Source: Natrialbaceae archaeon AArc-T1-2
Lineage (GTDB): Archaea > Halobacteriota > Halobacteria > Halobacteriales > Natrialbaceae
Direction: 5' to 3'
DNA length: 64,000 nucleotides
Assembly: GCF_030273315.1 (NCBI RefSeq)
Contig: NZ_CP127174.1
Span: forward strand, 2,790,001-2,854,000
Positions 4,512-61,915 of the stretch are shown here, piece by piece. The notes beneath the pieces were generated by a model. The model was not told the DNA's origin. It saw nothing but the letters and a program-made list of their open reading frames with translations, and ran no database searches. The position numbers were made by a program, and so were the translations under genes. Positions within the stretch are counted from its first letter, which is position 1. Each line of letters opens with the position of its first letter.

Positions 4512-5312
4512 TTACTCGTCGTCGGTCCGACGCTCGCGGTGGTACTCGCCGTCGCCGCCCTGGTCCTCGATGGCGGCGACTGCACGGTCGGCGCTCGCCT
4601 CGAGTTCGGACTCGGCGGTCTTGTAGTTCGGTGCCTGCACCTCGATGCGGTACTCCGGCGCGCCGACGTAGCTCACCTCGAGGTCGACCTCATCGGGCAC
4701 GTTCCCGTTGCCCTCTGCTGCCTGCAGGGCCTCGCGGACGCCGTCGACCCCGCTTTCTGCGGGGTTTTCCAGATCGACGTAACCGGTGACGTTGACGTAC
4801 GGTACCGAGACGTTCTCTCGGGCGGTGTCGACGATCGCCTCGATCTCCTCGTCGTCGAGATCTGTTCTCTCGAGCGCGTCCTCGCCGTGGATCGCAGCCT
4901 GTTTGAAGCCGTCGTAGAGACTGCCGTGTTCAGCGAGCAGCTCGTTCGCGATTGCGCCGTACTGCTCGCCGGTGACGTCTTCGCCGAAGGCGAGCTCCAT
5001 CCAGTTGTCCGCTTTCTGCTCGTTTTTCCACTGCTGAATCTTCTCGGATCGCTGGTGGTCGTTGACGTCTTTCAACGAGAGGTCGATCTGCTGTGAGGAT
5101 TCGTCGACGTCTAAGACCTTACAGACGACGATCTGGCCCTCGCTTACGTGATCGCGGACGTTTTTGATCCAGCCGCTTGCGACTTCGGAGATGTGGATCA
5201 GTCCTCGCTTGTCCTCGTACTCCTCTAAGTCGACGAAGACGCCGAAGTCCTCAATCTCGTCGATCTTGCCGACGACGAGCTCGCCGGGATCGGGCCAGCC
5301 GCTGTACTTCAT
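4512..5312 (-). CDS. eif2a: Translation initiation factor aIF2 subunit alpha
   Basis: A 266-residue protein. Residues about 10-85 are an S1/OB domain ([50 protein letters not shown]), followed by a helical domain and the C-terminal alpha/beta domain that binds the gamma subunit ([20 protein letters not shown]). It acts in the aIF2 heterotrimer that brings initiator Met-tRNA to the ribosome. The ATG at 5312 overlaps the S27e stop by the ATGA arrangement, implying translational coupling. Confidence 0.96.
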
Positions 5313-58831: not shown

Positions 58832-58840
58832 CTACGATAG
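58832..58840. repeat. 9-bp direct repeat, left target-site duplication
   Basis: CTACGATAG directly left of the terminal repeat starting GAGCGTGTCATAGAA. The identical 9 bases follow the opposite end at 61916-61924. A transposition target-site duplication is the simplest reading. Confidence 0.75.
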
Positions 58841-58841
58841 G

Positions 58842-58940
58842 AGCGTGTCATAGAAACATTCACAGCCGATTTATCCCAGTGCAACATTGGGTGGTGAAAT
58901 ATTGGAACAGAGATGGTTACCGAAGGCAGCGCAAGACTTA
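58842..58940. repeat. Left copy of an inverted insertion-element end
   Basis: 25 bases starting AGCGTGTCATAGAAACATTC are identical (inverted) to 63053-63077. Homology continues to about GAAGGCAGCGCAAGA, matching GAAGGCAGTGCAAGA on the opposite strand near 62983-63000. Each is probably the 5' end of the same IS type. Confidence 0.75.
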
Positions 58941-59383
58941 GAAAGTGGATTCAAAACCGGAACGCGAGAGGTAAAACGAATCGGTAGCGATCTGTGATCC
59001 ATTAATAAGCGTTTCCGAAGTTCACCCATCGTTTCGATTGAGATCCATCAGTCTGAAATAGCCCTTGACTACTCCCCAAGAGCTTTCAGTGTTTGATAAT
59101 TAGTACCCATAGCCTCCGATTTCGATTTGGTTCCGTCCCGTGGCGTCAAAAACACCCGTTGTGGCAATTTAAACGGGCGAGATATCGGACTAACCGTTGA
59201 ATATGATAGATGTAATCACAGAACGTACAGTTTGCGGGAAGAACGTGGGCTTGTATCGGATTCCTCTCGTTATTGCGTACCGACCGTCCGAAAACCAGTA
59301 GCAGCGTATGAGCACGAAGAATTTCACCCCGTTTCATACTGTCGGCTAAAAGTATTTTAAACGAGGCGAGACATTGATCGATT

Positions 59384-59929
59384 ATGAACTCTCTCGACAA
59401 CGTCTCTACCGAAGACTTCCGCCAGGTCTTGGCGGAGGTCGAGGGAAAGAAGCCGGCACAACGGCTGATGGCGGCGATCAATTACCTCGAAGAAGACGAT
59501 GCGACGTTAGAAGAAGTCGCTGAGCGGTATGGATATACTGGTGCCTGGCTCTCGCAGTGGCTTGATCGACTCGAACGGCTCTCTGATGAGCCGTTCGAGG
59601 AGGTTGTCTACGACGATCATCGTTCAGGAAGGCCCTCAAAACTCTCCGATCAAGAGTACGAGCGGTTCGTTGAAGCACTCCATAGCTCACCAGAGGACGT
59701 TGGACTTGACGCGCCTGCTTGGTCTGTTCCACTCGCTCGTCACTATCTCGCTGAGGAGTTCGACGTTGAGTACTGCGAACGACACGTCCGACGACTGATG
59801 TCCGAGGCCGGGCTGTCCTGGAAGACAGCCCGGCCGGAGTTCCACAAGTCCGACGAACGGGCCCAAAAAGCGTGGAAAAACGGGTTCAAAAAAAGCTCGA
59901 CAACCTGGACGACGAATACACGATCCTGA
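59384..59929 (+). CDS. IS630 transposase, OrfA
   Basis: 181 residues (MNSLDNVSTEDFRQVLAEVE). N-terminal helix-turn-helix domains for end binding (TLEEVAERYGYTGAWLSQWL; HYLAEEFDVEYCERHVRRLM with SEAGLSWKTARPEFHK). It ends in a different frame from OrfB. A run of seven A at about 59889 (TTCAAAAAAAGCTC) allows a -1 shift that joins it to OrfB. Confidence 0.88.
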   Translation: MNSLDNVSTEDFRQVLAEVEGKKPAQRLMAAINYLEEDDATLEEVAERYGYTGAWLSQWLDRLERLSDEPFEEVVYDDHRSGRPSKLSDQEYERFVEALHSSPEDVGLDAPAWSVPLARHYLAEEFDVEYCERHVRRLMSEAGLSWKTARPEFHKSDERAQKAWKNGFKKSSTTWTTNTRS

Positions 59930-60405
59930 CCATTGATCAGACGCGTCAAGTGCTCTCGACGCTGATCTACGCGTGGTTTCCGGAGGGAGAGCGCCCGTCA
60001 CTCCCGGTGACGGGCGCGTGGGACAGTGTTAAACTCCTCGGGGCAGTCAGCGATAGCGGCGAGACGTTCTTTCTCCCGTGTGAAGAAAATTTCAACAGCG
60101 ACACCACAATCCGGTTGCTCGACGCTCTCCAAACCGAGTTCGGCGAAAAGATCTGCGTCGTCTTGGACAATGCGTCTTATTTTACAGCGAATAGGGTGCA
60201 GGAATTCGCCGAAGGAACGCCGATCGAACTGTGTTACCTTCCACGGGGTTCACCGGAGCTGAACCCCGTGGAAGAGTGTTGGCGACGACTCAACCAGACA
60301 CTGGGCAACCGTCTGTTCGACACACTGGATGAACTTCAAGAGGCTGCACTGACTGCGCTTGACGCCATTGAATCGCCGAACGTCTTTACGTACTTATGTC
60401 CTTGA
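59872..60405 (+). CDS. IS630 transposase, OrfB (DDE catalytic domain)
   Basis: 177 residues with the DDE triad region: Asp in YTILTIDQTR, Asp in ICVVLDNASYFTAN, Glu in YLPRGSPELNPVEECWRRL. It is probably made as a fusion with OrfA by -1 frameshifting at the A7 run. Its stop TGA (60403-60405) lies in the right end of the element. It would cut and join at TA targets. Confidence 0.88.
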   Translation: MEKRVQKKLDNLDDEYTILTIDQTRQVLSTLIYAWFPEGERPSLPVTGAWDSVKLLGAVSDSGETFFLPCEENFNSDTTIRLLDALQTEFGEKICVVLDNASYFTANRVQEFAEGTPIELCYLPRGSPELNPVEECWRRLNQTLGNRLFDTLDELQEAALTALDAIESPNVFTYLCP

Positions 60406-61645
60406 GTATCAGGACGCGACTGAATTCACACAGAAGTACGGGCTGGCGTTCGTAATGGTTGCCAGTTACTTCGGCTCTGGCTCGGTGTTCATTGCCAGTC
60501 AAGCTGGCGTCATGCACGGATACACACTGCTTTGGGCCGCCGTCGGAGCGGCATTACTCGGATTCATGGCCCAGGACATGAGTGCTCGGCTAGGTATCCA
60601 CGGAACATCGCTGATGGCGTTCACCCGCGAAAAACTGGGCCGGCCACTGGCGATAACGATTGCACTCTTCCTGTCGATTGGCTGCATCGCCTGGACGCTC
60701 GGGTTGGTCGCCGCAGTCGGCGCTGGTCTCTCCTTCCTGCTCGGGGGTGTTGTCGGCTGGCAACCCATTGCTGTTCTCACGACCTTCGCTGCGATCGGTA
60801 TCGGACTATTGCGCTACGACACTGTCGAAAACATGATGATCGCAATGATGTTTTCGCTGATGGTCATCTTCGTGATCGTTGCCCTGCCGAGCGGTGCTGA
60901 TCCAAGCAGTGTTACGACCGGGTTCGTCCCGGGCACTGACTCGTTGGGTGCGCTGGCGATGGTAGCAGGGCTGCTCGGTACGACCGCATTGTGGCCGAAT
61001 TTCTTCCTGGAATCGATCCTAGTGGATACCAAAGGTTGGACTGACGAGAGCGACCTCCCGGAGGTTCGGAGAGACTTGGCAATCGGCTATGCAGTCGGCG
61101 GGATCACGATGGTTGCAATCCTGATCGGCGCAGCAGCATTACTGCGCCCGATGGGTTACACTGAGCTTGAGTCGTTCATTACACCGGGTCAGGCGCTCGT
61201 TGATGTACTTGGAACATGGGCCATGGTGCTGTTCGTCGGCGGCGTGATTGTCGCAGCGTTCAACAGTATCATCCCGATCATGTGGACGCCAGCCTACATC
61301 ATTCCGCAAGCGGCGGGATACCCAGTTCAAAAAGGGGATCGGTTGTTCAACACCATATTCGCAGGACTGACCGGGATCGGCGTGTTCTCGCCACTTGTGA
61401 GCTGGTGGCTGAATTTGTCGGTCGTTGACATGGTAATCCTGTTTCCGATGTACAACGGAATCTTCGCGCTGCCGGTCGTAGCCATCCTGTTGTTCTGGGC
61501 GGTTAACGACCGCGAGACGATGGGCGAGTACACGAATTCGAAAGCGGTAAACGCTGTCAATTCACTACTTGTACTACTCGCGGTTATCCTAGCGATTCTG
61601 TCTATCCAAGACTTCGCTAAACTCATCACTGGCGGTGGGTTCTGA
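60359..61645 (+). CDS. Nramp-family divalent metal transporter, 5' end split by IS630
   Basis: The body begins about YQDATEFTQKYGLAFVMVAS at 60407 and has about 11 membrane helices. Conserved Nramp features: ASYFGSGSVFIASQAG (helix 1), GFMAQDMSARLGIHG, and a PNFFLESI segment. It would import Mn2+, Fe2+ or similar. The longest frame starts with TTG in the IS end at 60359, and the first ATG is 60455, inside helix 1. The original 5' codons lie left of the IS (to 59338). The protein may be non-functional, or expressed from an IS-derived start. Confidence 0.8.
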   Translation: MTPLNRRTSLRTYVLEYQDATEFTQKYGLAFVMVASYFGSGSVFIASQAGVMHGYTLLWAAVGAALLGFMAQDMSARLGIHGTSLMAFTREKLGRPLAITIALFLSIGCIAWTLGLVAAVGAGLSFLLGGVVGWQPIAVLTTFAAIGIGLLRYDTVENMMIAMMFSLMVIFVIVALPSGADPSSVTTGFVPGTDSLGALAMVAGLLGTTALWPNFFLESILVDTKGWTDESDLPEVRRDLAIGYAVGGITMVAILIGAAALLRPMGYTELESFITPGQALVDVLGTWAMVLFVGGVIVAAFNSIIPIMWTPAYIIPQAAGYPVQKGDRLFNTIFAGLTGIGVFSPLVSWWLNLSVVDMVILFPMYNGIFALPVVAILLFWAVNDRETMGEYTNSKAVNAVNSLLVLLAVILAILSIQDFAKLITGGGF

Positions 61646-61676: not shown

Positions 61677-61915
61677 GAGCGTGTCATAGAATTGATCACA
61701 GGGTTTTGAGCTTCGTTCGTCCGGGATTGTGTCCTCTTTCGTAGTTGGCAACTGCAACGATCACGCGGAGACACAGTGCAAGGAACACCTGTGTTCGCGT
61801 ACAGGTGTTCCTGTCCTTGTGTCTGCGCCTCGTCATTGCGATCACCAACTACGAACGAGGAGACAATCCGGGAAGCACGATCATCACGGTGTGACAAGAG
61901 TTCTATGACACCCTC
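61677..61915. repeat. 239-bp foldback element (long inverted repeat)
   Basis: Outer ends GAGCGTGTCATAGAA and TTCTATGACACCCTC enclose two long arms that are largely complementary (GTCCGGGATTGTGTCC...GGAACACCTGT and ACAGGTGTTCC...GACAATCCGGG). No coding content. Its right end is also the right end of the 3,075-bp unit. Confidence 0.78.

Follow-up and report, generated by a model that had tools for sequence, protein, structure and literature searches.

An insertion sequence (IS) interrupts an Nramp-like gene in the 64,000-nt stretch of haloarchaeal DNA analysed here (the window, to which all coordinates below refer unless a genome or species is named), and the locus raises two questions: which bases were duplicated when the element arrived, and what became of the gene. 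The first-pass annotation described an IS630-type insertion splitting a gene of the Nramp family, a recent arrival and a gene otherwise intact. With these points we agree, as a profile-matched transposase lies between the 5′ end and the body of the gene, and the body is open to 61645 with no stop, frameshift or other lesion elsewhere in it. The target and the reading frame proposed there are, by our analysis, mistaken. We are highly confident in the following explanation taken as a whole. A 1072-bp IS630-like element with a T(N)A target would have inserted itself, not long ago, at codon 10 of an Nramp-like transporter gene on the chromosome of this salt-loving archaeon, duplicating TCA and leaving the upstream region and the ATG on one side and the body on the other. 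The gene would most likely be a null allele, its native translation stopping after 13 codons, and its role may be filled by a paralogue of 79% identity located at another chromosomal position. The features concerned are collected in Table 1.

Table 1. Features of the interrupted Nramp-like locus (window coordinates)
Feature	Position	Strand	Basis
Nramp-like gene upstream region, now severed from the body	59140..59307	+	Aligns upstream of the Haloterrigena salina orthologue
Nramp-like 5′ end: ATG, MSTKNFTPF codons and two bases of codon 10	59308..59336	+	Start shared by L070, L071 and L002
Left TCA, 3-bp target repeat	59334..59336	+	Single copy at the site in uninterrupted orthologues
IS630-like element, 1072 bp, ends TACTG...GAGTA	59337..60408	+	Ends common to 55 related copies; three empty sites
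Transposase ORF A, helix-turn-helix part	59384..59929	+	Pfam HTH_33, HTH_32
Slippery site CAAAAAAAG in the ORF A/B overlap	59887..59895	+	CA7G in most related copies
Transposase ORF B, DDE part, -1 frame relative to ORF A	59872..60405	+	Pfam DDE_3, 1.2e-32
Right TCA, 3-bp target repeat	60409..60411	+	Matches the left copy
Nramp-like gene remainder, codon 10 (QDATEFTQKYG...) to stop	60410..61645	+	Pfam Nramp; 92% to Haloterrigena salina

The two reading frames of the element tile the NCBIfam IS630 profile NF033545 nearly end to end: ORF A matches positions 3–134 of its 299 with 93.8 bits, just below the cut-off of 100, while ORF B matches positions 134–298 with 149.1 bits, above that cut-off. 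In ORF B, 34 residues lead from LDN to NPVE by a hand count on the translation, giving a DDE triad of the DD34E type. The terminal inverted repeats are imperfect, and their alignment score of 5.0 was equalled by one of 500 random segment pairs from the same element. A pattern search found CA7G in 48 of 55 related copies, A8 in three and A6 in two, with no pattern match in two. The presence of CA7G in the overlap of the frames, together with the tiling profile matches, points to -1 slippage, and the full transposase is probably produced by a -1 frameshift or by transcript slippage on the A7 run; frameshifting is reported for the IS630 family in a published account (PMC5009743). In its IS630-profile transposase, DD34E triad, length of about 1.1 kb, short imperfect inverted repeats and split frames with a slippery site, the element resembles IS630 and ISY100. 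We name it an IS630-like variant with an altered target, and not a typical IS630, since its profile match, DDE triad and terminal repeats are those of the family but its target duplication is not TA.

The same genome carries a second full-length copy (L032), 99.813% identical over 1069 bases and flanked by its own TTA/TTA repeat, and contig 2 holds a 720-base piece of the IS at 90% identity as well as two smaller pieces. Another IS630-type element, present in this genome in three copies (L036–L038), is about 66% identical at the DNA level over query bases 100–384; it forms a repeated unit of 1062–1064 bp that starts with TCTATAG and ends with CTATAG. IS630 has been described as specific for CTAG, and these termini would fit the classic CTAG target with duplication of TA.

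The host gene is recognisably a member of the Nramp family. The 428-residue frame at 60359–61645 matches Pfam Nramp (PF01566, E = 1.9e-48) through residues 47–394, covering profile positions 5–356 of 357, and the protein aligns with MntH structures such as 5m94 (E = 1.9e-15). Searched with the gene body, 23 of 61 genomes gave matches at an E-value of 1e-20 or better, the closest outside its own genome being L002 in genome G014 (86% identity), while a further genome scan returned 51 loci (L070–L120), the best of which belong to Haloterrigena salina (L070, 92%) and Natronolimnohabitans (L071, 87%). The intact paralogue, with no internal stops, lies on the same chromosome (L024, G000:C1:981686–982918). 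The protein differs from Nramp/MntH in the regions of the metal-binding motifs: in the alignment with 5m94, YMDPGN is replaced by YFGSGS and IMPHN by ALWPN, positions which we take to be the metal-binding motifs of these transporters. YFGSGS is found at the DPGN position in all 51 related loci, from haloarchaea and several bacteria; LWPNFFLES occurs in 49 of them and LWPNFFLEA in one, one locus not being aligned there, such that LWPN occupies the MPH position in 50 of 51. We call the protein Nramp-like because the canonical DPGN and MPH motifs are missing, and its substrate may be other than that of MntH. At two of these loci, L115 (Haloterrigena sp. H1, contig 9) and L120 (Halobiforma nitratireducens), the gene frame ends early within the contig, and loss of the Nramp-like gene seems to recur among haloarchaea.

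Where the two halves of the gene were once joined can be read from its three closest orthologues, which start MSTK[NH]F[TS]P[FL]QD and are uninterrupted at codon 10. Their N-termini are MSTKNFTPFQDVTEFTQKYG (L070), MSTKHFTPFQDLAALSQKYG (L071) and MSTKHFSPLQDLTAFSQKYG (L002), and the MSTKNFTPF of the window is identical to the start of L070 and similar to those of L071 and L002, placing the IS at codon 10 (MSTKNFTPF/QDATEFTQKYG). The nucleotide alignment extends to the severed side of the locus: blastn matched 59140–59336 with Haloterrigena salina 4802–5005 at 76% (a row assigned to L070 by its coordinate fit with the L070 gene), and 59222–59336 with L071 at 74% and L002 at 76%. In the window the native ATG at 59308 is preceded, three codons earlier, by an in-frame TAG (59299), and in L070 a stop likewise lies three codons upstream of the MSTK ATG. 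The open frame of L071 and L002 reaches further upstream, with another in-frame ATG before MSTK; the true starts of these two may thus be earlier than MSTK, the frame being unaffected. The stretch that starts with the ATG and closes with KYG spans 20 codons (60 nt) in all three orthologues. In the window it measures 60 nt if TCA is treated as the repeat; with TA in that role the length is 65 nt and the frame is lost. The target is therefore TCA, and the element itself includes the TA at either end. Each uninterrupted orthologue holds the target a single time: L071 and L002 read TCA there, and L070 reads CCA. The empty site for this insertion consists of relatives at 86–92% protein identity and not of the same strain's pre-insertion sequence, and distant homologues, having other N-termini, have no bearing on the exact joint. 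The earlier claim that removal of the element restores the frame stands insofar as the gene halves share a frame when the insert is taken out together with one target repeat, but the repeat in question is TCA, and a joint at TA produces a frameshift.

The near-identity of the second copy (99.8%), the perfect 3-bp repeat and the intact, constrained body of the gene suggest that the insertion is recent. Translation from the ATG at 59308 now meets a TAA at 59347 after 13 codons, and the gene is for this reason most likely null and inactive. A start in the IS end could nevertheless yield a chimeric product, or a shortened product could be made, as TTG 60359 in the IS end is in frame with the body, as are TTG 60368 and ATG 60455. 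We consider it unlikely that such a start prevents a knock-out, IS transcription and TTG 60359 (or 60368) giving a working transporter in which 17 (or 14) IS-encoded residues replace nine native ones. An open frame does run from 60353 across the IS end into the gene, and the residues lost precede the conserved YFGSGS stretch, in a part of the protein whose sequence and length vary among relatives. Yet TTG starts are uncommon in haloarchaea, an ATG is found ahead of the YFGSGS stretch in all 18 loci listed, and use of the next in-frame ATG, at 60455, would cost 24 native residues; the start in the IS end, suggested in the first-pass annotation, is itself putative.

We consider it very unlikely that the gene was already broken and that the IS landed in a pseudogene. 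Losses do occur in the family, as the early-ending frames at two of the 51 related loci illustrate, but the window's gene body carries no stop or frameshift elsewhere and its divergence is that of a constrained gene. Between the window and L070, dN is 0.040 and dS 0.351 over 403 codons (dN/dS about 0.11); the corresponding values are 0.046 and 0.785 between L070 and L071, and 0.067 and 1.151 between the window and L071. Three-way subtraction assigns to the window branch a dN near 0.030, a dS near 0.36 and a ratio near 0.08, figures which are rough, as the dS of the L070 branch comes out slightly below zero in this calculation. For most of the window branch the gene was apparently constrained. 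Considered as a gene disruption, the insertion would be an ordinary IS-made null allele with an intact, and perhaps functionally redundant, paralogue in the same chromosome.

Of more interest than the disruption, to transposon specialists at least, is the TNA target repeat. Related copies were collected in two sets. Firstly, 48 loci provided 38 copies with both ends, the other ten having been set aside for truncation, gaps or incompleteness (L139, among these, has TA on both sides). Secondly, 17 further copies were added, giving 55, all selected by a TACT/AGTA pattern at both ends. Within the 38, the three outside bases were identical on both sides in 24 copies, where shuffled pairings gave an expectation of 10.3, and TA stood on both sides in four (1.8 expected). 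Within the 55, matching TNA repeats flank 37 copies – 18 with TCA, ten with TTA, seven with TGA and two with TAA – against 14.2 expected and a maximum of 27 in 20,000 shuffles of the flanks. Four copies lack a TNA match but are flanked by TA left and right, a number expected at 2.8 and reached in 28% of shuffles. The other 14, including L045, L122, L151, L155 and L211, show neither a TNA match nor TA; in 13 of them both flanks are of the TNA form but differ in the middle base (TGA left of the element and TCA right of it in six), and the remaining one, L130, has TAA/TAC flanks. Recombination between copies, or repair, may have produced these mismatched flanks. A longer target repeat was ruled out, as none of the 55 copies matches at 4 or 5 bp. 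The excess of matches is also found among near-identical copies: in a set of 20 TNA-flanked copies, probably from Natribaculum, from which L146 (TA-flanked) and L041 (more distant) were excluded, 17 match, with 5.6 expected and a maximum of 14 in 50,000 shuffles.

Empty sites give a more direct view of what was duplicated. In two genomes that are probably both Natribaculum, TCA stands on both sides of L148 (G064) and once in L185 (G016), the flank being 92% identical. TA stands on both sides of L146 (G016) and once in L173 (G064, 99%), where the two flank matches overlap by exactly 2 bases. Overall, the empty sites confirm TNA duplication twice and TA duplication once. These sites are without extra TA pairs, and an IS core of CTG...GAG with TA as its target repeat is thereby ruled out. 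The copies L146 to L149 represent one element, matching the L148 copy at a rounded 100% identity, and a single element therefore gives both TNA and TA repeats. As the four TA matches do not exceed what chance would provide, the TA mode depends on the single empty site L146/L173. Empty sites were also sought for L032, whose flank is matched by relatives only in short, mostly distant parts, and for L149, where the flank match is partial. We consider it likely that these copies represent a widespread haloarchaeal IS630-like clade with a relaxed T(N)A target, duplicating mostly 3-bp TNA and sometimes 2-bp TA, and that the spacing of strand transfer is accordingly not fixed at two bases. The duplications observed point to a staggered cut of three bases in most cases and of two bases at least once.

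To the first-pass reading, in which TA was duplicated and the protein had the N-terminus ...YEHEEFHPVS-YQDATEF, we attach almost no credence: the CTG...GAG core is indeed bordered by TA left and right, TA is the usual IS630 target, and the YEHEEFHPVS frame is open across the TA joint, but this joint leaves an interval of 65 nt instead of 60, relies on terminal TA pairs that are absent at the two other empty sites (L148/L185 and L146/L173), and employs a frame other than the MSTK frame of the three closest orthologues. The continuation YQDATEFTQKYGLAF is, as had been stated, spelled to the right of the IS in the frame reached by the TA joint. YEHEEFHPVS itself is an open stretch in an ORF at 59127–59360, where the DNA of the MSTK start is read out of frame. 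The off-frame counterpart in L070 runs on as YEHEELHSVPGRDRIHAEV within a 254-aa ORF overlapping the gene, and does not enter QD. The earlier note had itself named orthologous N-termini as the arbiter, and in the coding frame none of these three orthologues carries YEHEEF ahead of QD. On the strength of the orthologue starts and the L070 stretch, the YEHEEFHPVS frame and its TA joint were ruled out.

Duplication of TCA, and of TNA more generally, sets the element apart from its better-known relatives. Zator elements make 3-bp duplications. In the assays described for ISY100, insertion occurred almost only at TA, with TA duplicated (34 of 39 products in one assay; PMC2170065), whereas here TNA is duplicated in 37 of 55 copies and TA in four of 55. 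One account gives TA as the sequence that the IS630-Tc1-mariner group as a whole recognises and duplicates, TATA being the repeat of Sailor (PMC8533490), and another describes TAA for Fot, and TAA or TAAA for some Fot-like elements (PMC7386202). The pogo/Fot elements and Sailor, as described there, thus also depart from TA, but do so by fixed A/T extensions, whereas any of the four bases may stand between T and A here. In the literature searched we found no TNA duplication by IS630 elements and no repeat with a free middle base; such repeats may be recorded in ISfinder, and we claim no priority. If the clade does duplicate TNA and, at least once, TA, its stagger would be adjustable, and the clade would offer a natural set for finding the transposase contacts that set it. 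For annotation, taking TA as the repeat misplaces the ends of elements of this clade by 2 bp on each side, and misplaced ends lead to wrong joined frames, as in the first reading of this locus.

Some minor observations concern mobile DNA in genome G016 and around the gene. Genome G016, probably Natribaculum breve, holds at least 17 nearly identical related IS copies (98–100%; L146, L147, L196–L209 and L212), a recent burst of related IS. In the window, 61677–61915 is occupied by a 239-bp inverted-repeat unit, MITE-like, with 15-bp ends GAGCGTGTCATAGAA / TTCTATGACACCCTC and inner arms of 80 nt that are 78% complementary; partial matches to it occur at C1:202583, C2:133925 and C2:113950. Another GAGCGTGTCATAGAA string (ggagcgtgtcatagaaa) is found upstream of the gene at 58840–58856, and is perhaps the remnant of a similar MITE-like unit.
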